Shown here one piece after another: positions 390 through 20,741 of a stretch of 35,110 nucleotides of DNA. The DNA comes from Candidatus Blautia stercorigallinarum. GTDB taxonomy: Bacteria > Bacillota > Clostridia > Lachnospirales > Lachnospiraceae. The stretch covers positions 1-35,110 of the forward strand of contig DXIQ01000020.1 in NCBI GenBank assembly GCA_019112785.1. The letters are read 5' to 3'. Made by a program: the position numbers and the translations under genes. The notes under the pieces were generated by a model. It was not told where the DNA came from. It made no database searches and worked only from the letters and a program-made list of their open reading frames with translations. The number at the start of each line of letters is the position of its first letter. The first letter of the stretch is position 1.

Positions 390-1583
390 ATGCTCAATAA
401 AAAATCAATCGATGATATTAACGTAAAGGGAAAAAGAGTACTGGTGCGCTGTGATTTTAACGTACCTCTGCAGGATGGAAAGATCACAGATGAAAACCGT
501 CTGGTAGCGGCCCTTCCAACTATTAAAAAACTGATCGCTGACGGAGGAAAGGTGATCCTCTGTTCTCATCTTGGAAAACCAAAGGGAGAGCCAAAACCGG
601 AATTATCTCTGGCTCCTGTTGCAAAACGTCTGACAGAGCTTCTGGGACAGGAAGTAAAATTTGCCGCAGATCCTGAAGTTGTGGGACCAAACGCAAAAGC
701 TGCTGTAGCGGCTATGAAAGACGGAGATGTGATCTTACTGGAGAACACCCGTTACCGTGCAGAAGAGACAAAGAACGGAGATGAGTTCTCCAAAGAACTG
801 GCTTCCCTGTGCGACGTATTTGTAAATGATGCTTTCGGTACTGCCCACAGAGCTCATTGCTCCAACGTTGGTGTTACCAAATATGTTGATACCGCTGTAG
901 TAGGATATCTGATGCAGAAAGAGATCGATTTCCTGGGAAATGCTGTAAATAATCCAAAGAGACCTTTCGTAGCTATCCTTGGCGGAGCAAAAGTTTCCAG
1001 CAAGATTTCTGTTATCAACAACCTGCTGGATAAAGTAGACACACTGATCATCGGCGGCGGAATGGCTTACACATTCTCCAAAGCTGAAGGCGGAAAGATC
1101 GGTGTTTCCCTTTGCGAAGACGACTATCTGCAGTATGCTCTTGATATGAAGAAAAAAGCAGCAGAAAAAGGCGTGAAGCTTCTTCTTCCTGTGGATAACA
1201 GGATCGGTGACGCATTCTCTAATGACTGTAATATCCAGATCGTACCTACCGGACAGATCCCTGACGGCTGGGAAGGAATGGATATCGGACCAGAGACAGA
1301 AAAACTGTTCTGCGACGCTGTAAAAGACGCTAAGACCGTTGTATGGAACGGACCGATGGGCTGCTTTGAAATGCCGAATTTCGCACATGGTACAGAAGCT
1401 GTTGCCAAAGCTCTGGCTGAATCAGATGCTACCACTATCATCGGCGGCGGTGATTCTGCAGCAGCAGTAAACATCTTAGGCTACGGCGACAAGATGACCC
1501 ACATCTCCACCGGCGGCGGAGCTTCCCTGGAATTCCTGGAAGGTAAAGAACTTCCTGGCGTAGCAGCTGCAAACGATAAATAA
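390..1583 (+). CDS. pgk: Phosphoglycerate kinase
   Basis: Converts 1,3-bisphosphoglycerate plus ADP to 3-phosphoglycerate plus ATP in cytosolic glycolysis. The 397-residue length is normal for bacterial PGK. The N-terminal substrate motif [11 protein letters not shown] is at about residues 17-27; [10 protein letters not shown] and [10 protein letters not shown] form the mid-protein region; the C-terminal nucleotide-binding GGGDSAAAV and [18 protein letters not shown] are intact. AAGGAGG at 375-381 sits 8 nt before the ATG and fixes the start. tpiA follows after 18 nt, so the two are almost certainly cotranscribed. The upstream gap gene is separated by a terminator and a long inverted repeat, so pgk may have its own promoter or depend on read-through. 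Codon bias is strong (CGT/AGA arginine, GGC/GGA glycine), consistent with high expression. Confidence 0.98.
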
Positions 1584-1601
1584 GGAAAGAAGGTAATTCC
1601 C

Positions 1602-2354
1602 ATGGCAAGGAAAAAAATTATTGCCGGAAACTGGAAGATGAACATGACTCCCAGTGAGGCAGTGGAATTAGTAAATACTTTAAAACCATTGGTTGCAAAT
1701 GATGATGTAGACGTTGTTTTCTGCGTACCGGCGATTGACATCGTTCCTGTAGTGGAAGCTGTAAAAGGAACCAATATCCAGGTAGGCGCTGAAAATATGT
1801 ATTTTGAAGAAAAAGGCGCTTACACAGGAGAGATTTCTCCAAACATGCTGGTAGACGCCGGAGTAAAATATGTGATCCTGGGTCATTCCGAGAGAAGAGA
1901 GTATTTCGGAGAGACAAACGAAGACATCAATAAGAAAATGCTGAAGGCATTTGAGCATGGTTTAACACCTATCATGTGCTGCGGTGAGACACTGGAGCAG
2001 AGAGAACAGGGCGTGACTATGGACTTTATCCGTCAGCAAGTAAAAGTTGGATTCCAGGGTATCACAGCAGATCAGGCAAAGGAAGCTGTCATCGCTTACG
2101 AGCCTATCTGGGCTATCGGTACAGGTAAGACAGCTACAACTGAGCAGGCTCAGGAAGTATGCAAGGCTATCCGCGAGTGTATCGCAGAAGTATATGATCA
2201 GGCTACAGCAGATGCTATCCGTATCCAGTACGGCGGATCTGTAAATGCCAAGACAGCTCCTGATTTATTTGTTCAGCCGGACATCGACGGCGGACTGGTA
2301 GGCGGAGCTGCTCTGAAACCAGATTTCGGTTCCATTGTAAACTACAATAAATAA
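1602..2354 (+). CDS. tpiA: Triosephosphate isomerase
   Basis: Interconverts dihydroxyacetone phosphate and glyceraldehyde 3-phosphate. The 250 residues match the usual TIM-barrel length. Catalytic residues are all present: Asn10 and Lys12 in AGNWKMN, His95 in LGHSERR, and Glu167 in [14 protein letters not shown], which also contains the mobile loop 6. The phosphate-binding YGGSV and GGLVGGAAL follow near the C-terminus. A purine-rich SD (AAGGAAAGAAGG) precedes the ATG. It is the second gene of a pgk-tpiA unit and ends at a strong bidirectional terminator. In many Firmicutes gpmI and eno come next; here about 5 kb of other genes intervenes. Confidence 0.98.
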
Positions 2355-2364
2355 AAGTGATTGA

Positions 2365-2434
2365 AAAAAGAACGGCCTCTGAAGCTGGAAAAATCAAAAG
2401 ATTTCTCCGAAAACTTCAGGGGCTGTTCTTTTTT
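2365..2434. terminator. Bidirectional terminator between tpiA and the convergent radical SAM gene
   Basis: AAGAACGGCCTCTGAAG at 2368-2384 pairs with CTTCAGGGGCTGTTCTT at 2414-2430, with two G-U wobbles. A T-run follows on the plus strand at 2429-2434 and the mirrored A-run gives U's on the minus strand. The plus-strand T-run reaches the stop codon of the minus-strand gene (2433-2435). Confidence 0.85.
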
Positions 2435-3344
2435 ACAGTCCTTCCAGATCAAAGGGAGGGGTATATTCCTCTTTGGCGCTGCTTTTTTCCTGCATAAAGC
2501 CTTTGGTAAGGCCAAGAGAAATCGCTTCTTCCAGTACCTTGTCATATTCGTAGGTGGTCAGGCGCCGGTTGATCTGAGGGTATTCACAGCTTTTATAAAA
2601 AGGGGTGTACTGGCTGAGAAGGCTGAGGAGAAAGCCCTCTTCCGGCAGATGCTCCCGTATCCAGTGCAGGATAGAGATAGAATCCTTTCTGGAGCCGGGC
2701 AGGACCATATGGCGGATGATAACCCCTTTCTGCATGATCCCGTCTTCATCAAAAACAGGGCTTCCGGTCTGGGAGATCATAGCTGAGACAGCCTGGGAGG
2801 CCTGAGCAAAATAATCTCTGGCTCCGGAATATCTGGCGGAAAGCTCCGGATCAAAGTATTTCAGATCCGGAAGATAAATATCCACATAACCGTCTAAAAG
2901 CCGGATCACTTCCGGTTTCTCATATCCCCCGCAGTTATAGACAACGGGGATCGAAAGTTTTGGCCGGGCAAGGTCCAGAGCTGTAAGGATCCCCGGAAGA
3001 AAGTGGGTCCCGGTTACCAGATTGATATTATGGGCTCCCTGTTCCTGGAGATCCAGAAAGATCCGGGCCAGCTTTTCCGGAGAAATCTCTTTACCCAGTC
3101 CTTCCTGGCTGATCTGGTAATTCTGACAGTAACAGCATTTCAGAGAGCAGCCGGAAAAGAATACAGCTCCGCTTCCTCTGGTGCCGCTGATACATGGCTC
3201 CTCCCAGTGGTGGAGAGCAGCGCGGGCACATCGTATCCCATCCTTTTCTCCGCAGAATCCGGTTCTTTCCTTGCGGTTTACTCTACAGTTCCTGGGACAG
3301 AGCCGGCAGTCGGTCATATCAAGTAAAGAATTTTCCTCTATCAT
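2433..3344 (-). CDS. Radical SAM protein, PflX-like (pyruvate formate-lyase activase homologue)
   Basis: A 303-residue radical SAM protein. The SAM cluster motif is the CSLKCCYC in FFSGCSLKCCYCQNYQ at about residues 64-79 (C-x3-C-x2-C, as in glycyl-radical activases). A second N-terminal set, CRLCPRNC plus GFCGE, may bind another cluster; this layout is typical of the COG1313 (PflX) group rather than PflA itself. These proteins are presumed to generate a 5'-deoxyadenosyl radical; the substrate is not known. No glycyl-radical enzyme is encoded nearby. AAGGGAG sits 9 nt before the ATG, and a TTGAAT-17-TATTAT promoter lies upstream on the same strand. It is a single-gene unit, convergent to tpiA and divergent from the L,D-transpeptidase. 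The family call is firm; a specific function is not assigned. Confidence 0.88.
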   Translation of the reverse strand: MIEENSLLDMTDCRLCPRNCRVNRKERTGFCGEKDGIRCARAALHHWEEPCISGTRGSGAVFFSGCSLKCCYCQNYQISQEGLGKEISPEKLARIFLDLQEQGAHNINLVTGTHFLPGILTALDLARPKLSIPVVYNCGGYEKPEVIRLLDGYVDIYLPDLKYFDPELSARYSGARDYFAQASQAVSAMISQTGSPVFDEDGIMQKGVIIRHMVLPGSRKDSISILHWIREHLPEEGFLLSLLSQYTPFYKSCEYPQINRRLTTYEYDKVLEEAISLGLTKGFMQEKSSAKEEYTPPFDLEGL

Positions 3345-3382
3345 ATAAATAAACTCCCTTAAAATTGATCATATCTTTTCTA

Positions 3383-3411
3383 ATAATAGTAGAAAAATTG
3401 GTGGAATTCAA
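3383..3411 (-). promoter_or_regulatory. Sigma-A-type promoter for the radical SAM gene
   Basis: Read on the minus strand: TTGAAT (3411-3406), a 17-nt spacer, then TATTAT (3388-3383). It lies about 40 nt before the start codon at 3344. The spacing is ideal and both hexamers are close to consensus. Confidence 0.6.
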
Positions 3412-3526
3412 CAGAAAGGAAGAAAAGCCTTTTAATTTTAAGGGTTTTGGAGTAGAATGACCTGTGAAAAAGATAACCTTCAGGTATAACCTGCGATAAT
3501 AAATAATAAGGAAGTTTGTTAGAAAT

Positions 3527-5005
3527 ATGAAAGATCACAAAAAAGAGAAATTTAAGGAACTGAAAAAAGCAGATGAAAAGCGGAAAAAGGGAAACCGTAA
3601 GAAAAAGAAAAATAAAAAATCGAAAAAAATCCTGGGAGTAGTCCTGGGTGCAGGAGCGGCTGTGATCCTCGCCGGTTACGCAGGCATCGGATTCTACTAT
3701 CAGGATAAATTTTATCCCGGAACCTCTATTAATGGTGTGGACTGCGGCGGAAAAGATACTGCCTATGTAAGAGAGCTGCTGAAGAACAGTGCAGAGACCT
3801 ATTCTCTGACGATCAGAGAAAGAGGAGACCAGACAGAAAGCATAGACGGAAAGACCATACAGCTTTCTTATCAGGACGATAACGAAGCTCAGGAGGTAAA
3901 AAAACAGCAGAATTCCTGGCTCTGGCCAATACAGATTTTCGGAAATAAAAATTATACGGTAAATGCAGACAGTTCTTATAATGAGGAAAGTCTGAATCAG
4001 GCGGTGTCAGCTCTGGCCTGTATGCAGGATGCCAATATGACTCCTGTACAGGACGCGAAAGTAGAAGACAACGGAACTTCTTATGAGATCATTCCGGAGG
4101 TAGAGGGAACTACGCTGGATAAAGAGAAGACTCTGGCTGCTGTTAAAGGGGCAGTGGATCAGCGGCAGACAGAACTTTCCCTGGAAGATGCAGGCTGTTA
4201 TGTACAGCCGGCAGTCCGTCAGGATGATGAAAGCCTGAAAAAAGATGCAGAACAGCTGAATAAATTTACAAGTCTTCAGGCCAGTCTGGATTTCGGGACA
4301 GGAACAGAAACTGTCACCAGAGATCAGCTAAAATCCTGGCTGAAAAAGGGAGACGACGGAAATTACTATTTTGATACAGAGACGGTAAAGCAGACAGTGA
4401 TCGCCTGGTCAGAAAAATATAATACTATCGGCCAGCCCAGGGATTTTGTTACTTCAGAGGGGGCTACCGTGCACCTTACCCAGGGAGATTATGGCTGGAG
4501 ACTGTGGCAGGATAAGACTACAGAATCGCTGGTAAATATGCTCAATGCAGGACAGAGCGGACCGGTAGAACCAACCTGGCTCTATTCCGGAGAAAAACAC
4601 GGGGGCAATGATATTGACGGCACTTATGTGGAGATTTCCATCAGCGAACAGAGAATGTGGTTTTATAAAAACGGAACTCTGCTGGTAGATACTCCTGTGG
4701 TAACAGGAAATCCCAACAATGGAAACGGAACACCTTCAGGCGGAGTATGGAGACTGAAGGATAAGGCAAGCCCTTCTACCCTTGTGGGAAGAAATCCTGA
4801 TGGATCTATTGAATACGAAACCCCGGTAAACTACTGGATGCCTTTTAACGGAGGCGTAGGTATTCACGACCTTACCAGCAGGACCAGCTTCGGGGGAGAT
4901 ATTTATCTTTATAACGGATCTCACGGATGCATCAATACTCCTCTGGATAATGCCAGGACTATTTATGAAAATATCGAAGTCAATACACCTGTGGTTGTGT
5001 ATTGA
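3527..5005 (+). CDS. Membrane-anchored L,D-transpeptidase (YkuD) with PG-binding domain
   Basis: A 492-residue envelope enzyme predicted to make 3-3 peptidoglycan crosslinks or attach stems to other acceptors. The first 34 residues are very Lys-rich and likely cytoplasmic. One membrane segment follows at about 35-58 (ILGVVLGAGAAVILAGYAGI), giving an N-in, C-out single-pass protein. The middle, about 60-330, resembles the PG_binding_4 region found before YkuD domains. The YkuD domain occupies about 365-492 and keeps the catalytic signature: His447 in GVGIHD, then SHGCINTP with nucleophile Cys468. The SD is poor (AAGGAAG, 3510-3516), but the ATG precedes a plausible topogenic start. No terminator separates it from the next operon, whose promoter overlaps its stop codon. 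L,D-transpeptidases can give resistance to some beta-lactams in other species; nothing here shows that. Confidence 0.92.
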   Translation: MKDHKKEKFKELKKADEKRKKGNRKKKKNKKSKKILGVVLGAGAAVILAGYAGIGFYYQDKFYPGTSINGVDCGGKDTAYVRELLKNSAETYSLTIRERGDQTESIDGKTIQLSYQDDNEAQEVKKQQNSWLWPIQIFGNKNYTVNADSSYNEESLNQAVSALACMQDANMTPVQDAKVEDNGTSYEIIPEVEGTTLDKEKTLAAVKGAVDQRQTELSLEDAGCYVQPAVRQDDESLKKDAEQLNKFTSLQASLDFGTGTETVTRDQLKSWLKKGDDGNYYFDTETVKQTVIAWSEKYNTIGQPRDFVTSEGATVHLTQGDYGWRLWQDKTTESLVNMLNAGQSGPVEPTWLYSGEKHGGNDIDGTYVEISISEQRMWFYKNGTLLVDTPVVTGNPNNGNGTPSGGVWRLKDKASPSTLVGRNPDGSIEYETPVNYWMPFNGGVGIHDLTSRTSFGGDIYLYNGSHGCINTPLDNARTIYENIEVNTPVVVY

Positions 5006-5030
5006 TATTTTGGCGGAAAGCTGTTATAAT
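5002..5030 (+). promoter_or_regulatory. Strong promoter of the amino acid ABC transporter operon
   Basis: TTGATA (5002-5007), a 17-nt spacer, and a perfect TATAAT (5025-5030). The -35 box overlaps the TGA stop of the L,D-transpeptidase gene. Transcription should start near 5037, leaving a leader of about 85 nt. In it TATGCATTA (5049-5057) and TAATGCATA (5091-5099) are inverted copies that could fold just upstream of the SD. Confidence 0.75.
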
Positions 5031-5122
5031 CCATTGAAATTGAATAAATATGCATTACTGTTTCCAAGATGTATAGAAAATGAAAAATAATAATGCATAA
5101 ATATAAAAAGGAGAGGAAAAAG

Positions 5123-5923
5123 ATGAAGAAAAAAGTTTTAGCGGTATTCTTAGTATCTGCAGCAGTACTGACAGCAGCTGGCTGTTCAGGAGGTAGCCAG
5201 GCTTCTTCTGAACCAGTGGAGATCCAGTCTGTAGATGATCTGGCGGATCTGAAGATCGGCGTGCAGATCGGTACTACAGGAGATTCTCAGGCCACAGATG
5301 CGGTTAAGGATGATTCCCAGGTAAACCGTTTTAATAAGGGAGCGGATGCTATCGTGGCTCTGAAAAACGGTAAAGTAGACTGTGTGGTTATTGACTCTCT
5401 GCCTGCAGAAAAATTTGTAGAAGCCAATGATGATCTGAAGATCGTTGATGGTATTTTTGATAAAGAGGAATATGCGATCTGCATGAAGAAAGGCAATACA
5501 GCGCTGAGAGATGCTTTTAACAGCGCCCTTGCCGAACTTAAAGAAGAGGGAACCTTAGAGGAAATCCAGAACAATTACATCGGCGACGAGATCGGGGAGC
5601 ACCCCTATGAGTCTCCGGCAGATGTGGACCGTTCTAACGGGGTACTGACCATGGCTACCAATGCAGAGTTTGAGCCCTGGGAGTATAAAGAAGGAGATGA
5701 GGTCGTGGGAATTGATGCAGATATCGCCCAGGCCATCTGTGACAAATTAGGCTATGAGCTGAAGATCGAGGATATGGCCTTTGAAGCGATCCTCACATCT
5801 GTAGATACCGGAAAGGCAGACTTTGGCGCGGCAGGTATGACAGTGACACCGGAAAGAGAAGAAAGCGTGGACTTTACAGATACTTATGCAGAAGCTACTC
5901 AGGTAGTGATCGTTAAAAAATAA
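5123..5923 (+). CDS. Polar amino acid ABC transporter binding lipoprotein, circularly permuted SBP_bac_3 fold
   Basis: Extracellular lipid-anchored substrate-binding protein of an amino acid importer. I start at the ATG at 5123 (266 aa) because AAAGGAG lies just before it; an upstream in-frame ATG at 5093 has no SD and would bury the signal peptide. The lipobox ends at Cys21. The domain order is unusual. Segments normally in the second half of this family come first: KIGVQIGTTG (44-53), KNGKVDCVVID (81-91), EEYAICMKKGN (115-125) and the C-terminal helices up to NNYIG (150-154). Then, after a linker at about 155-173, come the segments normally at the N-terminus: MATNAEFEPWEY (177-188), VVGIDADIAQAI (194-205), DMAFEAI (217-223), GMTVTPEREESVDF (238-251), ending VVIVKK. 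The likely ligand carboxylate Arg (Arg245) and lobe-2 Asp (Asp91) remain. Permease and ATPase genes follow directly. The substrate class is inferred from family only. Confidence 0.9.
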   Translation: MKKKVLAVFLVSAAVLTAAGCSGGSQASSEPVEIQSVDDLADLKIGVQIGTTGDSQATDAVKDDSQVNRFNKGADAIVALKNGKVDCVVIDSLPAEKFVEANDDLKIVDGIFDKEEYAICMKKGNTALRDAFNSALAELKEEGTLEEIQNNYIGDEIGEHPYESPADVDRSNGVLTMATNAEFEPWEYKEGDEVVGIDADIAQAICDKLGYELKIEDMAFEAILTSVDTGKADFGAAGMTVTPEREESVDFTDTYAEATQVVIVKK

Positions 5924-5952
5924 TACCGGGATAAGCAAGGAGGAATTGAGCT

Positions 5953-6645
5953 ATGTGGGAAAATTTCCAACATGAGTTTCAGCGGTATTTTGTGGACAAC
6001 GGAGCCTCGGACTGGTGGCTTAACGGCCTGAAGACTACGATCCTGGTAACCCTTCTGGCCTTGTGTATCGGTGTGATCCTGGGCTTTCTGGTGGCGTTGA
6101 TCCGTTCCACTCATGAACAGACCGGCAAGCTGAAGCTGTTAAATGCAGTATGTGTGGTATATCTGACAGTTATCCGTGGAACACCTTCTATGATACAGAT
6201 TCTGATCTTTTATTCCGTGGTGTTTGCCAGCATACCTTTGAACAACATTATCATCGGAGGCATTGCCTTTGGTATCAATTCCGGAGCTTATGTGGCGGAG
6301 ATCGTCCGTTCCGGTATCATGTCCATTGATAAAGGTCAGATGGAGGCAGGCAGAAGTCTGGGATTAAGTTCCGGTCAGACTATGAAACTGATCATCATGC
6401 CCCAGGCATTTAAAAATGTCCTTCCGGCTCTGATCAACGAGATGATCGTGCTTTTAAAGGAAACTGCCATTATCGGATATATCGGCACGGTAGATATCAC
6501 AAAGGCGGCCACACTGGTACAGAGCCGTACTTACAGCGCTTTCGTACCCCTGATCTCAGCGGCAGTCTTTTATCTGGTACTGGTCATGCTGCTGACCTAT
6601 TTCATGGGCAAGGTAGAAAGGAGGCTGCGCAGAAGTGACCACTAA
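5953..6645 (+). CDS. Polar amino acid ABC transporter permease (HisM/GlnP family)
   Basis: A 230-residue inner-membrane subunit with about five hydrophobic helices, the first at about 25-50 ([20 protein letters not shown]). The cytoplasmic EAA loop that docks the ATPase is clear: [25 protein letters not shown] at about 132-156. The N-terminal [21 protein letters not shown] resembles family members that make homodimeric translocators. AAGGAGG precedes the ATG at 5953 by about 8 nt, 29 nt after the binding protein stop. The 3' end overlaps the GTG start of the ATPase gene by 11 nt, which indicates translational coupling. Only one permease gene is present, so a homodimer is inferred. Confidence 0.93.
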
Positions 6646-7378
6646 GGGCGAAGTATTGATAAAAGTAGAAAATCTCCAGAAATATTTCGGAGAGAATAAG
6701 GTCCTGGACGGGATCAGCACAGAAATACATAAAGGCGAGGTAGTGGCTATCATCGGCCCGTCCGGTTCCGGAAAATCCACTTTTCTCCGTTCTCTGAACC
6801 TTCTGGAGGTCCCTACAGGAGGAAGGATCTTATTTGAAAATGTGGATATTACAGATCCCAAGGTGGATATTAACCGCCACCGGCAGAAGATCGGAATGGT
6901 ATTTCAGCAGTTTAATCTGTTTCCTCATAAGACAGTGAAGGAAAACATCATGCTGGCCCCTGTGACCCTGAAGCTTATGACACCGGAGGAAGCTTCTAAA
7001 AAGGCAGAAGAGCTTCTTGCGAGAGTCGGCCTTCCGGACAAGGCAGATGCCTACCCAGGCAGTCTTTCTGGAGGACAGAAGCAGAGGATCGCCATTGCCC
7101 GGGCTCTGGCTATGAATCCGGATGTGATGCTTTTCGACGAACCAACTTCTGCACTGGATCCGGAGATGGTAGGAGAGGTGCTGGAGATCATGAAAGAGCT
7201 GGCCAGGACCGGTATGACCATGGTAGTGGTGACCCATGAGATGGGATTTGCCAGAGAGGTAGCCAGCAGAGTACTCTTTATTGACGGCGGGAATATCCAG
7301 GAGGATGCTCCGCCAAAAGAATTTTTTGCCTGTCCGAAAAATCAGAGGCTGCGGGAATTTCTTTCTAAGGTATTATAA
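6635..7378 (+). CDS. Polar amino acid ABC transporter ATP-binding protein (GlnQ/ArtP family)
   Basis: A 247-residue ABC ATPase that powers the importer formed with the two preceding genes. Walker [10 protein letters not shown] is at residues 41-49, the Q-loop around Gln91, signature LSGGQ at 144-148, Walker B VMLFDEP at 164-170, and the H-loop His201 in VVTHEMG. Length and motifs are those of the polar amino acid uptake (PAAT) family. The start is a GTG at 6635 inside the end of the permease gene; GAAAGGAGG (6615-6623) supports it with 11-nt spacing. No obvious terminator follows before the gpmI promoter, so some read-through into gpmI is possible. Confidence 0.95.
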
Positions 7379-7383
7379 ATCCA

Positions 7384-7411
7384 TTGAAAAATCCTGTAAT
7401 TCTGTTAAAAT
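7384..7411 (+). promoter_or_regulatory. Probable gpmI promoter
   Basis: TTGAAA (7384-7389), a 16-nt spacer, and TAAAAT (7406-7411), placed about 50 nt before the gpmI ATG. Both boxes are near consensus, but the AT-rich surroundings make chance matches easier. Confidence 0.5.
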
Positions 7412-7461
7412 AAGAAACGGACATAAGGAAAAAAGAAATTTGAGATAAAGGAGAAATCGTC

Positions 7462-9003
7462 ATGAGTAAAAAACCAACCGTATTAATGATTCTTGATGGA
7501 TATGGTCTGAATGATAAGTGTGAGGCCAATGCCGTATGCGAAGGTAAGACACCGATCATGGATCAGCTGATGTCTCAGTGCCCATTCGTAAAAGGAAATG
7601 CCAGCGGCATGGCTGTTGGTCTTCCTGAGGGACAGATGGGAAACTCTGAGGTAGGACATCTGAATATGGGCGCCGGCCGTATCGTATATCAGGAGCTTAC
7701 AAGGATCACCAAAGAGATTCAGGACGGAGATTTCTTTAAGAATGAGGCACTTTTAAAGGCGGTTCATAACGCAAAGGAAAACAATGCAGCCCTTCATCTT
7801 TTCGGACTCCTTTCTGACGGCGGTGTTCACAGCCACATTACACATCTTTTCGGACTGCTGGAACTGGCTAAGAGAGAAGGACTGGAAAAAGTATTCGTTC
7901 ACTGTTTCCTGGACGGAAGAGATACGCCTACTACAGGAGGCAAAGGCTATATCCAGGAACTGAATGACAAGATGAAAGAACTGGGCGTAGGACAGGTTGC
8001 TTCTGTAATGGGACGTTACTATGCTATGGACAGGGATAACCGCTGGGACCGTGTGGAGCTGGCGTATAAAGCTCTGACAAAAGGTGAAGGCATTCAGGCA
8101 GAGTGCCCGGTATGCGCTGTAAAAGCTTCTTATGAAGAAGGAAAGACAGATGAATTTGTCGTTCCTACAGTGATCGTAAAAGATGGAAAACCGGTAGGAA
8201 CCATTCAGGATAAAGATTCCGTGATCTTCTTTAACTTCCGTCCTGACAGAGCCAGAGAGATCACCAGAGCGTTCTGCGCAGATGAATTTGACGGATTTGC
8301 AAGAGAGAAGAGACTGGATCTTACCTATGTATGCTTTACCGAATATGATCCTACTATCCCAAATACAGAAGTGGCATTCCACAAAGTATCTATTAAAAAT
8401 ACTTTCGGAGAATTTCTTGCAGCTAATGGTCTGAAACAGGCCCGTATCGCTGAGACAGAGAAATATGCTCATGTAACTTTCTTCTTTAACGGCGGCGTAG
8501 AAGAGCCAAATGAAGGAGAAGACAGGATCCTGGTAAAATCTCCTAAAGTTGCCACTTACGACCTGAAGCCTGAAATGAGCGCTTACGAAGTATGCGACAA
8601 ACTGGTAGAAGCCATCAAATCCGGAAAATATGATGTGATCATCATTAACTTCGCAAATCCGGATATGGTAGGGCACACCGGAGTAGAATCTGCAGCCATC
8701 AAAGCTATCGAGACTGTAGATGAGTGCGTGGGAAGAGCAGTAGAGGCTATCAAGGAAGTTGACGGCCAGATGTTTATCTGCGCAGACCACGGAAATGCTG
8801 AGCAGCTGGTAGACTATGAGACAGGAGCACCTTTCACTGCTCATACAACGAATCCGGTACCTTTTATCCTGGTAAATGCAGATCCTTCTTATACACTGAG
8901 AGAAGGCGGCTGCCTGGCAGATATCGCGCCGACCCTCATCGAGCTGATGGGTATGGAACAGCCGGCAGAAATGACAGGAAAATCTCTGCTGATCAAAAAA
9001 TAA
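7462..9003 (+). CDS. gpmI: 2,3-bisphosphoglycerate-independent phosphoglycerate mutase
   Basis: Converts 3-phosphoglycerate to 2-phosphoglycerate using two Mn ions and a phosphoserine intermediate; alkaline phosphatase superfamily. The 513 residues match the usual length. Metal ligand Asp12 lies in MILDGYGL and nucleophile Ser62 in GNSEVGHLNMGAGR. Other signatures include HCFLDGRDTPT, SVMGRYYAMDRDNRWDR, NFRPDRAR, NFANPDMVGHTG and the C-terminal CADHGNAE with metal-binding Asp/His. AAAGGAG is 9 nt before the ATG. It has its own predicted promoter and a strong terminator, so it looks like a single-gene unit. Codon bias resembles pgk and tpiA. In many Firmicutes gpmI directly follows tpiA; here it is about 5 kb downstream. 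Confidence 0.98.
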   Translation: MSKKPTVLMILDGYGLNDKCEANAVCEGKTPIMDQLMSQCPFVKGNASGMAVGLPEGQMGNSEVGHLNMGAGRIVYQELTRITKEIQDGDFFKNEALLKAVHNAKENNAALHLFGLLSDGGVHSHITHLFGLLELAKREGLEKVFVHCFLDGRDTPTTGGKGYIQELNDKMKELGVGQVASVMGRYYAMDRDNRWDRVELAYKALTKGEGIQAECPVCAVKASYEEGKTDEFVVPTVIVKDGKPVGTIQDKDSVIFFNFRPDRAREITRAFCADEFDGFAREKRLDLTYVCFTEYDPTIPNTEVAFHKVSIKNTFGEFLAANGLKQARIAETEKYAHVTFFFNGGVEEPNEGEDRILVKSPKVATYDLKPEMSAYEVCDKLVEAIKSGKYDVIIINFANPDMVGHTGVESAAIKAIETVDECVGRAVEAIKEVDGQMFICADHGNAEQLVDYETGAPFTAHTTNPVPFILVNADPSYTLREGGCLADIAPTLIELMGMEQPAEMTGKSLLIKK

Positions 9004-9020
9004 AAAATTTAAAACTTACT

Positions 9021-9053
9021 AAAATCCGCAGGTTTCAGGCCTGCGGATTTTGT
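9021..9053 (+). terminator. Intrinsic terminator after gpmI
   Basis: A perfect 12-bp stem: AAAATCCGCAGG (9021-9032) with CCTGCGGATTTT (9040-9051), 7-nt loop, ending in a short U-run. It is nearly symmetric and could act on both strands. Confidence 0.88.
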
Positions 9054-9067
9054 AAAGTATTCCGGTA

Positions 9068-9096
9068 TTGTTTTTCCGGAGACCAAATGCTATGAT
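9068..9096 (+). promoter_or_regulatory. Predicted distal eno promoter (P1)
   Basis: TTGTTT (9068-9073), a 17-nt spacer, and TATGAT (9091-9096). If used, it gives a leader of about 315 nt before the eno ATG. Confidence 0.45.
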
Positions 9097-9102
9097 GTAA
9101 TC

Positions 9103-9416
9103 ACAGTTCAATCATTAATTTTCAGATCCGGCCATTCGGCCAATATTCCAGAACCACATACATAAAAGAACTGAATACCCACAGGAAAAATCTGTTTCCA
9201 GAAAAATACCTGGTTTGAGAAGTAAGATCCGGGGAATATTATCCATGGGATAAGAGAAAGTATGAGACAGAGCAAAAAGACCATAGGCTAAAGTTTATAA
9301 ACACTATAGAGAAGAAGTTCCATACAGAAAGAGAAAAAGAGTAAAAAATACCCCGGAAAACAGAATACAGAAAAGATACGAAGAGTGTAGACAGAAAATA
9401 ATCAGGAGGTATTGCC
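9103..9416 (+). promoter_or_regulatory. Long purine-rich leader region upstream of eno
   Basis: No gene can be supported in this stretch between gpmI and eno. A second promoter-like pair lies at 9215-9242 (TTGAGA, 16 nt, TATTAT), so eno may have two starts. The part from 9245 to 9410 is rich in A and G and poor in stable hairpins; small stems include GGAAA/TTTCC near 9184 and CCAG/CTGG near 9198. AGACCATAGGCT at 9278-9289 also occurs in the loop of the inverted repeat before pgk (285-296). No known riboswitch is recognised. Confidence 0.4.
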
Positions 9417-10727
9417 ATGGAAAGATATTTACCCATCAGGAAAGTATACGCAAGAGAAGTGCTGGATTCAAGAGGAAATCCTACGGTAGAAGTGGAAGTG
9501 ACTGTAGGGGAAGGCGTTGTGGGAAGAGACGGATATACCGGAAGAGCCATCGTGCCTTCCGGCGCCTCAACCGGGAAGTTTGAAGCTCTGGAGCTCCGGG
9601 ACCGGGAGAAACGATACCAGGGACTGGGCGTGCAGAAAGCGGTGAACAATGTAAACGCCAAGCTGGCAGATGCGGTTCTGGGAGAGAATGCCCTGGATCA
9701 GAGCCAGATCGATCAGCTGATCCTGGAAGCAGACGGGACAGAGAATAAAGAACATCTGGGGGCCAACGCTACTCTGGGGGTATCCCTGGCTGTAGCGGAT
9801 GCGGCGGCAAAAGCCCTCCGGCTGCCTCTGTATCAGTATCTGGGCGGCTGTATCACAGACCGTATGCCTGTGCCCATGATGAACATTTTAAATGGAGGAA
9901 AGCATGCGGATAACACAGTGGATTTTCAGGAATTTATGATCATGCCCGCAGGAGCCTGCTGTTTTAAAGAAGGACTGCGTATGTGCGGAGAGACTTACCA
10001 GAAATTAAAGGAGATCCTGAAAAACAGGAACCTGTCCACCGGGGTAGGGGACGAGGGCGGATTTGCTCCGGATGTAAAAGATGCCAGAGAAATATTTGAA
10101 CTTATGAGTCTGGCAGTCCGGGAGGCAGGCTACGAACCGGGGAAAGAGATTTCCTTTGCCATGGATGCGGCAGCCAGCGAGCTCTATCTGGAAAAGGAAA
10201 ACGCCTACTATTTCCCGGGAGAGTCCTCCATGAAAGGGGAAAAAGTGATCCGGACAGCAGAAGAAATGGTAGAGTACTATGAAAAGCTTGCGGGAGAATA
10301 TCCTCTCATTTCTATAGAAGACGGTCTCTGGGAGGATGACTGGAGCGGATGGAAACTGATGACCGAGAAGCTGGGGGGAAGAGTACAGCTTGTGGGAGAC
10401 GATCTTTTTGTGACCAATGTAAAGCGGGTCCGCAGAGGTATCTGTGAAAAGGCGGGAAACGCGGTTCTGATCAAGGTGAACCAGATCGGAACCCTTACAG
10501 AGGCCATAGCGGCTGTGCGTATGACCCAGAAGGCCGGGTGGCATGCCGTGATCTCCCACCGTTCGGGAGAGAGTGAAGACACTTTTATCGCAGATCTGGC
10601 AGTGGCTGTAGGAGCAGGACAGATCAAGACCGGGGCTCCCTGCAGAGGAGAGCGGACAGCCAAATATAACCGGCTCCTGGCTATTGAAGACCGGCTGGGC
10701 AGCCACGCACTGTACCTGGTACAGTGA
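9417..10727 (+). CDS. eno: Enolase (phosphopyruvate hydratase)
   Basis: Dehydrates 2-phosphoglycerate to phosphoenolpyruvate. The 436 residues are full length. Key residues: [14 protein letters not shown] (49-62), Glu213 in GDEGGFAPD, Mg ligands Asp250, Glu301 ([11 protein letters not shown]) and Asp328 (VGDDLFVTN), catalytic Lys353 ([10 protein letters not shown]), and the [18 protein letters not shown] loop at 380-397. AGGAGG lies 8 nt before the ATG. Codon choice differs from pgk, tpiA and gpmI: CGG arginine, GGG glycine and CTC leucine are frequent, suggesting weaker expression or a secondary enolase copy. The gene is flanked by a long leader and, downstream, by 160 nt with no clear terminator (only weak GC-rich palindromes near 10790-10815). 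Confidence 0.97.
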
Positions 10728-15772: not shown

Positions 15773-15886
15773 AAAGAGGATTGCTCAATCGCTATAGTAG
15801 ACTTATATGGTATGGTTTTCTATAGTAAAGTGGAAAAGAATATTTCTGCAACTAAGACTGAGACATCAGAAAGGGAGGAATCTAAG

Positions 15887-17587
15887 ATGAAAATGAAGAA
15901 AATCTTAGCAATGGCTTTAGCCAGCGCCATGGTCCTGTCACTGGGTGCATGTGGAAGCTCTGATTCCGGCAGTGCTTCCGGTACAGATTCCAGTGCGGCA
16001 AGTGACGGCGCTTCTGAAAGTAGTGACACAGCGTCCACAGCTTTCCCGGGAACCGCCGAGGAGGATACTTATGTAGTGGATCTTCGTGCAGAACCACCTG
16101 AATTAAACAGCATCCTGACTACAGACGTTGCTTCCGGAGATATTCTCCGTGAGGTTATGGTAGGTCTGTATAAACTAGACGCCAACGATACACCGGTTGC
16201 CGACCTGGCTGAGGATACACAGGTCAGCGAAGACGGCCGTGTATACACCATGAAGCTCCGTCAGGACGCAAAATGGACAAACGGCGAGCCTGTGACGGCA
16301 CACGATTTCGTGTTCTCTTATCAGACTATCTGCAGCAAGGAAGCAGCTTCTTCCTATGCCTTCATTGTTTACGATAACCTGTTAAACGGCAATGAAGTAT
16401 ATGAAGGAACTATGGATCCTTCTGAACTGGGTGTTAAAGCTATTGACGATTACACTCTGGAAGTGACTTTTGAAAACCCGATTCCATACGCTGAGCATTT
16501 GTTCTCCTTTGCTTCCTATTATCCAATGAACCAGAAAGCATATGAGGAGATCGGTGCAGATGTATATGGAGACGACGCTGATAAGATTGTGACAAACGGT
16601 GCTTATACAATCTCTGAGTGGGTACACAACGATCATATCACTCTGACACAGAATCCTGATTTCTATGATCCGGACAGATGTGCAGCAGGAACTATCCGCT
16701 ACACAATGATGAACGATGCCAACACACGTATGAACGCTTTCCAGGGCGGACAGGTTGACTGTATCAACATCACAGCAGACCAGACTGCACAGGCTGAGAC
16801 ACTTGGCATCAAAACAGAGAGCTATGTAGACAACGGAAACTGGTACATTCAGTTCAATACACAGAAAACAGACAAGGGCCTTGACAATGCCAATATCCGC
16901 CGCGGTCTTGGTATGGCAATCAATACAGAGAGCCTTTGCAACGACATCCTGAAAGACGGTTCTGTACCGGCTACAGGTCTTGTACCTACAACGATCGCCG
17001 GAGCTAACGGCGAGAAATACCGTGACGCCGTAGGCGATGTGGTTTCCTACAATGCAGAAGAAGCTAAGAAAGCTTTCGAACAGGGACTTCAGGAGACAGG
17101 ACTTTCTGCAGAAGATCTGAATCTGTCGATCCTCTGCGACGACCAGTCACAGGCACAGAGAACTGCAGAGTTCTATCAGGCACAGTGGAAAGAAGTTCTG
17201 GGTATCGACGTTGAGATCACACCTCAGCCATTCAAATCCCGTCTGGCTTCCATGGACAGCGGCGACTTCGATATGGTTTATGCAGGATGGTCACCAGACT
17301 ACAATGACCCGATGACTTTCCTGGATATGTTCACTACTACAAACGGAAATAACTACGGTAAATATTCCAATGCCCAGTATGATGAACTTATTGCAAATGC
17401 TCTGAAGGAAAGCGATGTAGTTGCCCGTCAGGATATGCTGGCTCAGGCAGAAAAGATCGTAACCTATGATGACGCTGCGATTTATCCTCTGTACTTCAGC
17501 GGTGTTACTTACGCCGTATCTGATAAAGTTCAGAACATGACACGTACAGGATTCCAGGAATTCGACTTTACAGATGCAGCAGAATAA
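15887..17587 (+). CDS. oppA: Oligopeptide ABC transporter substrate-binding lipoprotein
   Basis: A 566-residue SBP_bac_5 family lipoprotein that captures peptides outside the membrane. The signal peptide is MKMKKILAMALASAMVLSLGAC with lipidated Cys22, followed by a Ser/Gly/Ala/Asp-rich tether to about residue 55. The family core begins at DLRAEPPELNSILTTD and includes YTMKLRQDAKWTNGEPVTAHDFVFSYQ, the SBP_bac_5 signature. GGGAGG lies about 9 nt before the ATG at 15887; an upstream in-frame ATG (15812) lacks an SD and would displace the signal peptide. Codons are highly biased, as for an abundant protein. Two hairpins separate it from oppB, likely holding its expression above that of the membrane subunits. 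Confidence 0.94.
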   Translation: MKMKKILAMALASAMVLSLGACGSSDSGSASGTDSSAASDGASESSDTASTAFPGTAEEDTYVVDLRAEPPELNSILTTDVASGDILREVMVGLYKLDANDTPVADLAEDTQVSEDGRVYTMKLRQDAKWTNGEPVTAHDFVFSYQTICSKEAASSYAFIVYDNLLNGNEVYEGTMDPSELGVKAIDDYTLEVTFENPIPYAEHLFSFASYYPMNQKAYEEIGADVYGDDADKIVTNGAYTISEWVHNDHITLTQNPDFYDPDRCAAGTIRYTMMNDANTRMNAFQGGQVDCINITADQTAQAETLGIKTESYVDNGNWYIQFNTQKTDKGLDNANIRRGLGMAINTESLCNDILKDGSVPATGLVPTTIAGANGEKYRDAVGDVVSYNAEEAKKAFEQGLQETGLSAEDLNLSILCDDQSQAQRTAEFYQAQWKEVLGIDVEITPQPFKSRLASMDSGDFDMVYAGWSPDYNDPMTFLDMFTTTNGNNYGKYSNAQYDELIANALKESDVVARQDMLAQAEKIVTYDDAAIYPLYFSGVTYAVSDKVQNMTRTGFQEFDFTDAAE

Positions 17588-17633
17588 TAGAAAGTTATAC
17601 GGCTGACAAAGGTATAAAGTGATTTAGCGGATA

Positions 17634-17675
17634 GGAGCCGTTGCCAGGGAATAGAGATGTTCCCGGCAGGGCTCC
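17634..17675 (+). terminator. Hairpin after oppA (partial terminator or mRNA stabiliser)
   Basis: GGAGCC (17634-17639) pairs with GGCTCC (17670-17675), extended inside by GCCAGGGAA with TTCCCGGC. No good T-run follows, so it is more likely a 3'-end-protecting or partial termination structure than a full terminator. Confidence 0.6.
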
Positions 17676-17678
17676 TGT

Positions 17679-17723
17679 CTGTTTATGTAAATCGCAAAGA
17701 ATCTTTGCGATTTACATAAACAG
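17679..17723. repeat. Perfect 22-bp inverted repeat (45-nt palindrome) between oppA and oppB
   Basis: The arm 17679-17700 begins CTGTTTATGTAAATCG and its exact reverse complement is at 17702-17723, with a single A at 17701 between them. No mismatch is present. It starts 3 nt after the preceding GC-rich hairpin and ends 20 nt before the oppB SD. On the plus strand it is followed by TAAAAAAAG rather than a T-run, so it is not a standard terminator. Confidence 0.9.
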
Positions 17724-17759
17724 TAAAAAAAGAAAACACAAGAGAAAGGAGCTGTTATC

Positions 17760-18713
17760 TTGGCGAATCAGATACGCTACATTTTAAAGAGAATCGTCTA
17801 TTCCTTTATTACGATCCTGGTCCTGACCAGCGTCACCTTCCTGCTGATGCAGCTGCTTCCGGGAGATCCTTTTACCGGCGGAAAAGATATCCCCGATACG
17901 GTTATGGAAGCTCTGAAAGCAAAGTATGGTCTGGATAAACCTGTACTCCAGCAGCTGCTGATGTACATCGGCAATGCCCTCCAGGGGGACTTTGGTATTT
18001 CCATACCTGACGGAAGAGAAGTTACCGATATTATCCGGGAGGCTTTCCCGGTTTCTTTTGACCTGGGCATCCGGGCACTGCTCTTTGCATTTATCATGGG
18101 TATCCTGCTGGGTATCGTTGCAGCAGTAAAAAGAGGTACAGCCTGGGACAGCGGCGCTATGTTCCTGGCATTGGTAGGTGTGTCCGTACCTTCCTTCATT
18201 ATGGGTGCCATCCTTCAGTACTTCCTGGCTCTGAAGCTGGGTCAGGCTACAGGAACTCAGGTATTCGCTATTGTGGGCTGGACAGACTGGCACAGTAAGA
18301 TTCTGCCCGCCTTTGCTCTGGCCTTCGGTTCCATGGCTACCGTGAGCCGTCTTATGCGTACCAGTATGCTGGATGTATTAAGCCAGGATTATATTAAGAC
18401 AGCAAAAGCAAAAGGACTGAGCCAGAGACAGATTATTTGGAGGCATGCTGTCCGTAATGCCATCATGCCGGTCATCACGGTTATGGGACCTTTGGTGGCA
18501 GCGATCCTGACGGGAGCCTTTGTTGTAGAAAATATTTTTGCGATTCCAGGTCTTGGAAAATACTTTGTAACCAGTGTACAGACTAATAATTATACGCTGA
18601 TCGCAGGAACTACTGTATTCTACGGTACCTTCCTGATCCTGGCCAACCTGGTGGTAGATATTATCTACGGCCTGATCGATCCCCGTATCAAACTGACAGG
18701 AAGAAAGGAGTAG
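17760..18713 (+). CDS. oppB: Oligopeptide ABC transporter permease OppB
   Basis: A 317-residue membrane subunit with six predicted helices, the first at about 10-31 (YSFITILVLTSVTFLLMQLLPG). It has the N-terminal region typical of OppB/DppB (LLPGDPFTGG, LKAKYGLDKPVLQQ) and the EAA motif AKAKGLSQRQIIWRHAVRNA at about 215-234, which contacts the ATPases. The start is TTG at 17760, chosen because GAAAGGAG (17744-17751) sits 8 nt upstream. oppC follows after 9 nt. Confidence 0.94.
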   Translation: MANQIRYILKRIVYSFITILVLTSVTFLLMQLLPGDPFTGGKDIPDTVMEALKAKYGLDKPVLQQLLMYIGNALQGDFGISIPDGREVTDIIREAFPVSFDLGIRALLFAFIMGILLGIVAAVKRGTAWDSGAMFLALVGVSVPSFIMGAILQYFLALKLGQATGTQVFAIVGWTDWHSKILPAFALAFGSMATVSRLMRTSMLDVLSQDYIKTAKAKGLSQRQIIWRHAVRNAIMPVITVMGPLVAAILTGAFVVENIFAIPGLGKYFVTSVQTNNYTLIAGTTVFYGTFLILANLVVDIIYGLIDPRIKLTGRKE

Positions 18714-18722
18714 AAAAGCACT

Positions 18723-19721
18723 ATGGCAAAAAAGAAACAACCCCAAGCAGTACAGGCCCCAAAGTACACTCCTTATGATGTCAGCGGAAAAATCGGAGCG
18801 GACGCCTTTGAGGTGATCGGATCCGATGCTTCCTCCATGGAGGCCATTGCCCGTCCTTCTATCAGTTTTATGAAGGATGCCTGGAACCGCATCAGAAAAA
18901 GTAAAGTAGCGATTGTATGTATGACGATTCTGGCGCTGATCATTCTGGGGGCTATTTTTCTCCCCATGATCTGTCCGTTTGGCTATGAGCAGCAGAATGT
19001 AGCGTTTCAGAATAAACCTATCATGTCCCCGGATTCTGTGACAGGGCAGATGCATATTTTCGGAACGGACAGCCTTGGACGCGACGTGTTCGCCAGAGTA
19101 TGGTATGGCGCCAGGATTTCTCTGACCATCGCTATCGCCGTGGCTCTGATCGATTGTTTCGTAGGTGTTATCTATGGCGGTGTTTCCGGATATTTCGGCG
19201 GTGCAGTAGATACGGTGATGATGCGTATCCTGGAGATCATCAGCGGTATTCCCTATCTGATCATCGTTATCCTTCTGATGACCGTTATGGACAGAGGGTT
19301 GGGGACTATCATTGTAGCTTATTCACTTACCGGGTGGACCGGTATGGCCCGTCTGGTAAGAGGCCAGGTAGTCAGCCTGAAGGAGCAGGAGTTTGTTATC
19401 GCAGCCAAATCCATGGGTGCATCTCCCGCCCGTATCATCGGTAAGCATCTGGTTCCAAATGTGTTGAGTGTCATCATTGTCAATATCACACTGGACATTC
19501 CAAATGTTATTTTTACAGAGGCTTTCCTGTCTATGCTGGGACTTGGTATCGCACCGCCTCAGTCTTCCTGGGGTATGATGGCCAATGCAGCCATTCAGGT
19601 ATTCCAGATGTATCCTACACAGTTGGTAGTGGTAGCCCTGTTCATCTGTGTAACTATGTTGTCCTTTAACCTGCTGGGAGACCAGCTCCGGGACGCATTC
19701 GACCCGAAATTAAGGAGGTAA
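18723..19721 (+). CDS. oppC: Oligopeptide ABC transporter permease OppC
   Basis: A 332-residue partner of OppB. It has a long cytoplasmic N-terminus (about 60 residues), then a first helix at about 62-82 (VAIVCMTILALIILGAIFLP), the periplasm-facing IFGTDSLGRDVFARVWYGARISL motif typical of OppC/DppC, and the EAA loop AKSMGASPARIIGKHLVPN. The C-terminal LGDQLRDAFDPKLRR is also characteristic. AAAGGAG at the end of oppB precedes the ATG by 12 nt. oppD follows after 6 nt. Confidence 0.94.
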   Translation: MAKKKQPQAVQAPKYTPYDVSGKIGADAFEVIGSDASSMEAIARPSISFMKDAWNRIRKSKVAIVCMTILALIILGAIFLPMICPFGYEQQNVAFQNKPIMSPDSVTGQMHIFGTDSLGRDVFARVWYGARISLTIAIAVALIDCFVGVIYGGVSGYFGGAVDTVMMRILEIISGIPYLIIVILLMTVMDRGLGTIIVAYSLTGWTGMARLVRGQVVSLKEQEFVIAAKSMGASPARIIGKHLVPNVLSVIIVNITLDIPNVIFTEAFLSMLGLGIAPPQSSWGMMANAAIQVFQMYPTQLVVVALFICVTMLSFNLLGDQLRDAFDPKLRR

Positions 19722-19727
19722 AGAACT

Positions 19728-20741
19728 ATGGAAAATGATAATGTCTTAAAGATAGACAACCTCCATGTTTCCTTTGATACTTATGCAGGAGAGGTCCACG
19801 CAGTCCGCGGGGTCAGCCTGGAGGTTAAGAAAGGGGAGGTAATGGCCATTGTTGGAGAATCCGGCTGTGGGAAAAGTGTTACCGCCCAGACGATCATGAA
19901 ATTAAACCCCATGCCGCCCGCCCGTATCAAAGAAGGAAGCATTGATCTCTGCGGCAAGGATATCGTAGCCGCCAGCGAAAAGGAAATGCAGTCTATCAGA
20001 GGACAGCTGGTAAGTATGATCTTCCAGGATCCTATGACCTGTATGAATCCTACCATGAAGGTCGGAAAACAGCTTACCGAGACTCTGGTAAAGAAAAAGA
20101 AGATCGCAAAAGCAGACGCGGAGAAAGAAGCTATCCGTCTGCTGAAACTGGTGCAGATCCCCAATCCTGAGGAAAGAGCAAAACAGTATCCTCATGAGTT
20201 TTCCGGCGGTATGCGGCAGAGAGCCATGATCGCTATGGCTCTGGCCTGCAATCCTCAGCTCCTTATTGCCGATGAGCCTACCACAGCCCTGGATGTGACC
20301 ATCCAGGCCCAGATTATGCAGCTTATGGCAAAGATCAAAGAGGAGACAAAGACTGCCATTATCCTGATTACCCATGACCTAGGAGTTGTGGCAAATCTGG
20401 CGGATGAAGTGTCTGTCATGTATGCAGGAAAGATCGTGGAAAGAGGTTCCGTAAGAGATATCTTCTACAATCCGGGACATCCTTATACCATCGCCCTTCT
20501 GCGAAGCCTTCCTACCATTGATACAAAAAAAGAGGAAGAACTGGTTTCTATCCCAGGTACTCCACCGGATCTTTATGCACCGCCTCAGGGCTGTGGATTC
20601 GCCAGCCGGTGCGAACACTGCATGAAGATCTGCAAGGCAAATCAGCCGCCGGTATTTGAGCTGGGAGAGGGACATTCCGCTTCCTGCTGGAGACTTCACC
20701 CGGATTTTCCGGGAGCAAAGGAGGGAAAGGTAAATGGATAA
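19728..20741 (+). CDS. oppD: Oligopeptide ABC transporter ATP-binding protein OppD
   Basis: A 337-residue ABC ATPase. Walker A is GESGCGKS at about 44-51, signature FSGGMRQRAMIAMALA, Walker B LLIADEPTTALD, H-loop ITHDLGV. The C-terminal oligopeptide-transporter extension contains PPQGCGFASRCEHCMKIC and a final SCW; the spaced cysteines are typical of OppD/DppD proteins, some of which bind an Fe-S cluster. AAGGAGG precedes the ATG. The 3' end overlaps oppF by 8 nt, implying translational coupling and equal supply of the two ATPases. Confidence 0.95.
   Translation: MENDNVLKIDNLHVSFDTYAGEVHAVRGVSLEVKKGEVMAIVGESGCGKSVTAQTIMKLNPMPPARIKEGSIDLCGKDIVAASEKEMQSIRGQLVSMIFQDPMTCMNPTMKVGKQLTETLVKKKKIAKADAEKEAIRLLKLVQIPNPEERAKQYPHEFSGGMRQRAMIAMALACNPQLLIADEPTTALDVTIQAQIMQLMAKIKEETKTAIILITHDLGVVANLADEVSVMYAGKIVERGSVRDIFYNPGHPYTIALLRSLPTIDTKKEEELVSIPGTPPDLYAPPQGCGFASRCEHCMKICKANQPPVFELGEGHSASCWRLHPDFPGAKEGKVNG

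Follow-up and report, generated by a model that had tools for sequence, protein, structure and literature searches.

A binding-protein gene of Candidatus Blautia stercorigallinarum encodes a natural circular permutant of the SBP_bac_3 family (PF00497), in which the chain is cut at the first inter-lobe hinge and lobe 2 precedes lobe 1. The gene lies in a stretch of 35,110 nucleotides that was analysed as a whole and is called the window here. With a probability of about 0.9, its product is a lipid-anchored binding protein that serves an ABC importer for polar amino acids with a single permease.

Rotated chain order and gene setting

PF00497 is the sole Pfam family that matches the whole binding protein above cut-off (126.5 bits, curated cut-off 26.4), and it does so as two stretches in swapped order; the usual collinearity of lobe 1 and lobe 2 is absent. 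An earlier note, made from the sequence alone, had proposed a rotated order cut at the first inter-lobe linker and had suggested aligning residues 43-154 and 174-266 separately. Scanned alone, each piece matches the opposite end of the profile: residues 75-154 of the first correspond to profile positions 49-131 (E 4e-9), and residues 175-266 of the second to positions 1-92 (E 1.4e-27). The same swap is seen when phmmer is run against PDB sequences, where 6svf, 4zv1 and 4prs are each matched by two swapped stretches (i-E 5e-19 to 6e-18 each). On TmArgBP (6svf), residues 168-266 of the window protein lie on 5-104 and residues 36-147 on 112-221. Most of the sequence relatives listed from the PDB are binders of amino acids. 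BLASTP against canonical relatives again gave two swapped HSPs, at 66% and 52% for L024 and at 72% and 46% for L165. After in silico rotation, both of the relatives tried gave one collinear HSP, at 57.9% over 216 columns (L024) and 57.0% over 221 columns (L165). An ordinary collinear binding protein, which would have refuted the earlier note, is therefore rejected, since the stretches found with PF00497, phmmer and BLASTP are all swapped. The C-terminus of the window protein, ...QVVIVKK, is the hinge strand that normally enters lobe 2, so the proposed cut site also stands. Because Pfam scores permuted proteins well above cut-off, they can pass as ordinary binding-protein genes in annotation.

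The features of the gene and its neighbours are given in Table 1. The gene is an uninterrupted frame of 266 codons. An alternative in-frame ATG is located 30 bases 5' of 5123, and the first ATG in the relatives L002, L003 and L004 is the equivalent of 5123. The signal peptide was read by the lipobox rule. Cys21 is present in every member of a smaller alignment of 15 permuted proteins, though not throughout an alignment of 52. Asp91 and Arg245, the ligand pair that the earlier note had found retained, are invariant in 52 of 52 aligned permuted proteins; we assume that they make the same contacts as their counterparts in GlnBP and HisJ.

Table 1. Positions of the permuted binding-protein gene, its parts and its neighbours in the window.
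Feature	Position	Strand	Basis or remark
SBP_bac_3 solute-binding lipoprotein gene (putative lipid anchor), circularly permuted, type A (lobe 2 - lobe 1)	5123..5923	+	stop included
Predicted signal peptide, lipobox-like end LTAAGC	5123..5185	+	sequence and alignments
Segment 2a, start of lobe 2 (IGVQIGTTGD ... VVIDSLPAEKFVE), residues 34-101	5222..5425	+	
Asp91 codon, expected contact to the ligand amino group	5393..5395	+	invariance in 52 aligned proteins
Segment 2b, final lobe 2 strands and C-terminal helices, residues 102-156	5426..5590	+	
New linker from old C-terminus to old N-terminus, residues 157-171	5591..5635	+	
Lobe 1 (GVLTMATNAEFEPWEY ... QVVIVKK), residues 172-266	5636..5920	+	ends with first inter-lobe hinge strand
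Arg245 codon, expected contact to the ligand carboxylate	5855..5857	+	invariance in 52 aligned proteins
Cognate permease (BPD_transp_1 / HEQRo_perm_3TM)	5953..6645	+	profile matches
Cognate ATPase, GlnQ/TcyN-like, below equivalog cut-offs	6635..7378	+	profile matches; GTG start overlaps permease
Upstream neighbour with YkuD L,D-transpeptidase domain, syntenic marker	3527..5005	+	70.1 bits, cut-off 23.4

The one permease and one ATPase with which the earlier note had grouped the gene are found directly downstream, supported by profile matches. The permease exceeds the TIGR01726 cut-off (66.6 vs 42.2 bits), and the ATPase scores 322 bits to GlnQ, which is below the equivalog cut-off of 379. A binding protein, a HEQRo-type permease and a GlnQ-type ATPase thus stand side by side as a polar amino acid ABC importer (PAAT) set. 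The gene is the sole binding-protein gene between its neighbours. In the rest of the source genome, which is 91% complete, one further PF00497 place is found besides the gene's own two stretches.

Several observations concern the surroundings of the operon. The importer operon is located inside a glycolytic cluster (window 390-10727), whose genes around the importer we take to be pgk-tpi-gpmI-eno. Within this cluster, a gene on the opposite strand (2433-3344) is presumably a radical-SAM activase-like gene. Elsewhere in the window (15812-21690) there is an ABC importer of usual gene order, with an SBP_bac_5 binding protein; we take it to be an oligopeptide-type importer in which two permeases and two ATPases follow the binding protein.

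Relatives, selection and predicted fold

The same order was sought in other genomes, as the earlier note had suggested, and is widespread among relatives. A genome-wide scan with a 12-sequence profile confirmed at least 555 relatives, of which the nearest 80 named loci were kept. Each kept locus spans query residue 44 or lower to 260 or higher; such a span could also come from two swapped segments, so the order itself was checked in the 80 loci. In 79 of them (the best 80 of at least 555) segments 2a, 2b and 1 follow each other in one stop-free frame, a uniformity that gives no frequency because similarity to the window protein was the ranking criterion. L109 is the sole exception among the 80 and is interrupted, with 2a in one open stretch and 2b-1 in another. 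An in-frame stop occurs inside the match in two of the 80, L109 and L065, and in L065 it is near the match start. By record title, 46 of the 80 loci belong to Lachnospiraceae, 19 to Oscillospiraceae, 2 to Acutalibacteraceae and 2 to Eubacteriaceae, and 11 carry no family. The closest among the best 80 of at least 555 are from Blautia (L045 at 87%, L046 at 80%). The rotated order is carried, among others, by Ruminococcus bromii YE282 (L097), by Roseburia hominis (L071) and by a complete Ruminococcus chromosome (L062). The chain end lies within 6 residues of the hinge strand in 68 of 70 stop-free named relatives with frames of up to 480 residues.

An artefact of assembly or gene calling, in which two neighbouring genes or a frameshift fake the order, might be considered for an assembly of 111 contigs. 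However, the frame is intact, the 117 and 29 bases that separate the gene from its neighbours could not contain a lost lobe, and the rotated order is also found in genomes listed as a single contig (G004, G005, G009 and G010) and in the 79 named loci. The artefact is rejected, with a probability that is negligible.

The permuted gene has been maintained in this form. Over residues 34-266, dN/dS is 0.039-0.050 (Nei-Gojobori; window gene vs eight congeners, six of the eight pairs computable), and dS ranges from 0.4 to 2.8 in the six pairs, which is close to saturation at the upper end. Constraint is seen in each of the three parts (lobe 2, linker and lobe 1), with a linker dN/dS of 0 to 0.10 in the six computable pairs. 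The rotated order is kept under purifying selection.

Fusions and lipoboxes were counted in 77 of the 80 loci, leaving out L065 and L109 for their in-frame stops and L101 for a contig edge. In seven of the 77 the frame runs on by one permease length, with a single binding unit each, and a Pfam permease was confirmed in both of these that were scanned (L110 and L114), as well as in a further single-unit fused frame, L281. An AlphaFold2 model of a permease fusion, built with seven sequences, was poor (mean pLDDT 64.5). The lipobox pattern is unmatched in 18 of the 77, a few of which still show a Cys. These 18 proteins and the two loci with in-frame stops would fit a decaying or non-transport relative, such as a pseudogene, a sensor or a scavenging decoy. 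This is highly improbable for the rotated gene: the low dN/dS, the permease and ATPase directly after a sole binding-protein gene, the fusions to a permease and the presence of just one other PF00497 place in the source genome all argue against it.

Variations in the anchor region and at the chain end were observed in relatives. Nine type A proteins (L049, L052, L054, L057, L060, L067, L080, L088 and L105) lack a lipobox Cys, and their signal peptides end in an AxA-like motif; these proteins may therefore be secreted rather than anchored. In L078 (3110-4573), about 220 residues of an acidic repeat (AETEEATEAVTE-like) lie between the lipobox and the permuted binding protein. In the permuted clade of L033, L317 and L321 the chain continues for 12-16 residues past the hinge strand (DSxIxxxxxL), with the stretch that would enter lobe 2.

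AlphaFold2, run with 52 permuted sequences, gave a monomer model with a mean pLDDT of 89.3 and a pTM of 0.81, in which 211 of 266 residues reach 90 or more. In its order of strands and helices lobe 2 comes first and the long strand 256-265 comes last. Foldseek is order-bound, and its full-length fits to canonical type II folds reached a query TM of at most 0.48 with rmsd mostly of 6-10 Å (best 50 of 1056 matches). Lobe 1 was fitted to domain 1 of TmArgBP (6y16) with a TMt of 0.64, 36% identity and rmsd 8.4, and the second match was the GlnPQ tandem SBD1-SBD2 (6h30) with rmsd 20. Poor order-bound fits are expected from rotated connectivity, and a different fold could give the same picture in such a search. 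The window protein most likely has the two-lobed type II Venus flytrap fold.

Canonical proteins of this fold have two strands that cross from one lobe to the other, and their C-terminal helices pack against lobe 1. As the cut is at the first crossing, each lobe of the window protein would be contiguous, with one covalent crossing left. In this type of permutant the lobes would thus share a single covalent strand where there are normally two, as the earlier note had proposed, and hinge motion may be affected.

The proposed chain would start with lobe 2, continue with the C-terminal helices, reach the old N-terminus over a new linker of about 15-18 residues and end at the first hinge strand. 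It would fold into an ordinary two-lobed Venus flytrap, hold an amino acid between the lobes via Asp91 and Arg245 as they close, and hand the ligand to the downstream permease, with the adjoining ATPase driving transport. That the importer binds and transports an amino acid is suggested by its sequence.

It could also be that the protein forms a lobe-exchanged dimer, in which lobe 2 of one chain and lobe 1 of another assemble the sites in trans. At 18 residues from one profile edge to the other, the new linker of the window protein is short, and linked homologous domains are known to swap. However, the confidence of the monomer model is mostly high across the linker (pLDDT 86 for residues 151-160 and 96 for 161-170), the seven named permease fusions have one unit each, and no sequence feature demands lobe exchange. 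The exchanged dimer is therefore considered unlikely, and the monomeric flytrap is preferred.

Cut points, repeated origin and tandems

Three cut points were found in the family. Type A is the hinge cut with the order 2a-2b-1, type B is cut in the middle of lobe 2 and has the order 2b-1-2a, and type C is cut inside 2a after the first lobe-2 helix. Type C is represented by one case, L305, from the phylum-level sample. With their cuts inside lobe 2, types B and C would keep both crossings between the lobes.

Among 20 genomes of the source genus, 16 have type A (G002 is counted here, with a match that a contig end cuts before lobe 1) and the other 4 have type B. Both types are located downstream of the same transpeptidase gene in the genus loci. 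In the genomes of L036, L026, L028 and L029 (4 of 20), type B and a permease of its own occupy this chromosomal slot. In L036 (G014, 4121-4993) the gene pair found downstream in the window follows as well; we take this pair to be phosphoglycerate mutase and enolase. The genes tpi, gpmI and eno flank the slot in L036 too. The permeases of the type B and type A loci are only 37% identical in the pair compared (L027 vs L001), so it is probable that the whole operon was swapped at a fixed address and not that one gene was re-cut.

At order level (392 genomes), at least 39 genomes have a full-length type A match, defined as query residue 33 or lower to 264 or higher with at least 173 bits and with G377 set aside. 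Fourteen of these 39 were read as DNA and each was confirmed, while 25 rest on match coordinates. Type B was found in at least 23 genomes of the same sample (22 at E 3e-104 or better, and G155), all 23 confirmed in DNA. Both counts are lower bounds, since up to 6 candidates per genome were scored and matches weaker than E 1e-30 were dropped. Frame lengths suggest a permease fusion in 19 of the 39 type A genomes; fusions were confirmed in G027 by sequence and in G088 by Pfam. With the source genome included, full-length type A is found in 13 of 245 genomes at class level, and a full-length match at E <1e-40 in 2 of 199 at phylum level. The weaker phylum-level matches include L317 and L321, both type A, and L314, an array.

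Classing of 332 loci with three segment profiles gave 127 type A frames, 124 canonical frames and 44 type B frames, plus tandems; these numbers are not frequencies, because the loci were fetched as kin of permuted proteins. Among the loci read, the hinge cut is the commonest. Some candidates from the match tables were rejected. Read as DNA, G377 is a canonical triple tandem and not a permuted one, which makes the type A count 39 and not 40. L315 had looked like a lobe 1-2-1 intermediate, and its frame is cut by a contig edge. G386 and G318 had suggested a further cut site, and they are canonical on DNA (L156, L157).

For trees, the segments of all proteins were set in one common order. From 313 units a tree of 104 rows was built, and with a stricter fill filter 300 units gave 89 rows, from which the partial canonical neighbour of L175 was left out. 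Parsimony counts switches and not gains, with reversals possible among them. The 104-row tree needs 14 canonical/permuted switches, of which well-supported branches force at least 9; 9 involve type A (at least 6 forced) and 5 type B (at least 4). On the 89-row tree there are 12 switches, at least 8 forced (9 for type A, at least 6; 3 for type B, at least 3). The AU test rejects one clade for type A (p 1.4e-90), for type B (p 6.2e-8) and for all permuted rows (p 7.4e-90), groups that were set by chain order. It also rejects a clade made of the window clade plus L031 (p 4.5e-5) or plus L033 (p 2.2e-5), pairings that were chosen after the tree had been seen.

Lobe-by-lobe comparisons point the same way for two of the clades. 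Permuted L031 and canonical L176 are 77/67% identical per lobe, whereas L031 is 30% identical to the window protein. For the canonical pair L176/L177 the lobe identities to L031 are 78/71%, against at most 55/37% for the other permuted clades listed. L033 likewise has 60/47% to canonical proteins and 35/36% to the other permuted clades listed. The permeases of L031 and L176 are 61% identical, so the same kind of importer is found with either chain order.

Not every permuted clade listed is a separate event. L304 (type A) and L305 (type C) match each other best in both lobes (56/56%). B-iv and B-v share one clade (100/86, 89-row tree), and canonical neighbours are about as near as permuted ones for L168 and B-i and, in lobe 2, also for L023. 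The window clade, moreover, branches without resolution in both trees and may itself be one event. One could take the L304/L305 pairing, the shared clade of B-iv and B-v and the poorly resolved window clade as traces of one ancient permutation, inherited vertically or transferred, with the canonical admixture being tree error. This is very unlikely; a single origin of the permuted order is rejected by the AU tests under the model used, and L031 and L033 are nearer to their canonical kin than to other permuted clades. The chain order of SBP_bac_3 has been switched repeatedly in the source phylum, with several phylogenetically separate occurrences.

A likely path to a rotated chain leads through tandems. 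A (1-2)(1-2) tandem, arising by fusion or duplication, would give a 2-1 chain upon loss of the outer lobes. The 2-1 chain corresponds to the interior of such a tandem, and a canonical tandem is found in the same bacterial family. L158 (2410-5313, -), from the same-family genome G377, is a permease-fused canonical triple tandem of 967 aa with near-identical domains, and it is 54% identical to the window protein over two stretches that span 2-1. In the GlnPQ tandem 6h30, the best sequence match places query residues 32-259 on chain 100-323, which can be read as the end of SBD1 and the start of SBD2. A comparison of the L158 linkers with the window linker gave no plain sequence likeness, so for the window clade this route stays a proposal. 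From the sequences, duplication and trimming is probably the likeliest route to the 2-1 chain.

Permease fusions that carry two, three or five 2-1 units in an array were also observed (L034, L159, L160, L161 and L314, up to 1525 aa; the L159 frame is at 1571-6148, -). The permease was recognised by Pfam in L034, L159, L160 and L161, and by sequence in L314. In L034 and L035 an ATPase is part of the same chain, together with a C-terminal stretch that has no Pfam match. The best Pfam stretches pair the array lobes in canonical order, and the arrays may consist either of permuted units or of canonical domains flanked by two split lobes.

Known systems and biological meaning

GlnH, HisJ and TmArgBP represent the canonical SBP_bac_3 class (cluster F / type II). 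The window protein has both lobes homologous to theirs, the same Asp/Arg pair and the same operon partners, and presumably shares the flytrap mechanism. It differs in being rotated, with the N-terminal anchor on lobe 2 and the C-terminus free at the first hinge, and it would have one covalent lobe-lobe crossing where the canonical proteins have two. To our knowledge, few natural circular permutants of binding proteins have been published.

The open-access literature outside bioRxiv was searched by titles and the beginnings of abstracts, together with parts of PMC4990184, PMC2912341, PMC7683729 and PMC8025302. Among the matches listed, no permuted SBP_bac_3 protein was found; the nearest were Tp0684 and engineered sensors, Tp0684 being the one solved natural permutant. 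Tp0684 (TpMglB-2, 'Type Ic') of Treponema pallidum is described in the parts of PMC4990184 consulted as a natural circular permutant binding protein of class I that still binds glucose and changes conformation. Its first three N-lobe strands have moved to the C-terminal part, which raises the hinge crossings from three to four, and its authors suggest in those parts that the moved part may derive from another gene (PMC4990184). Like the window protein, Tp0684 is a natural permutant of an ABC-type binding protein. However, as far as those parts describe it, Tp0684 has a class I sugar-binding fold with MglB homology, while the window protein belongs to SBP_bac_3 and not to the class I sugar binders. 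Hinge crossings rise in Tp0684 and would fall in type A, and the moved part of Tp0684 is perhaps foreign, whereas both lobes of the window protein are plain homologues of canonical sisters.

GlnPQ (6h30), in the parts of PMC8025302 consulted, has a tandem SBD1-SBD2 of complete canonical domains linked to a permease. The window protein resembles the inner 2-1 part of a GlnPQ-like tandem standing alone. L158 has close SBP_bac_3 domains and a permease fusion, but its order is (1-2)(1-2)(1-2), unlike that of the window protein. A binding-protein permutant as such was thus already known from Tp0684; what is new, as far as the matches listed go, is that permutants of amino-acid binding proteins are widespread, under selection and repeatedly evolved.

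The permuted forms are found in common gut genera, namely Blautia, Ruminococcus (including R. bromii) and Roseburia. Models copied from canonical structures would give such proteins the wrong connectivity. Canonical sisters that are 67-77% identical per lobe provide matched natural pairs for comparison. These pairs bear on whether the two-strand hinge sets flytrap kinetics, on how discontinuous and contiguous domains fold, and on the gene path of circular permutation.

A broader reading, which is tentative, is that SBP_bac_3 proteins of Clostridia and their phylum are prone to permutation (at least 8 switches, three cuts) within importer operons of otherwise ordinary make-up, and that the one-strand hinge alters opening and closing in a way used by selection. 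If this is true, the hinge cut might give faster release to the permease or freer attachment, and topology would be an evolvable dial of flytrap dynamics.
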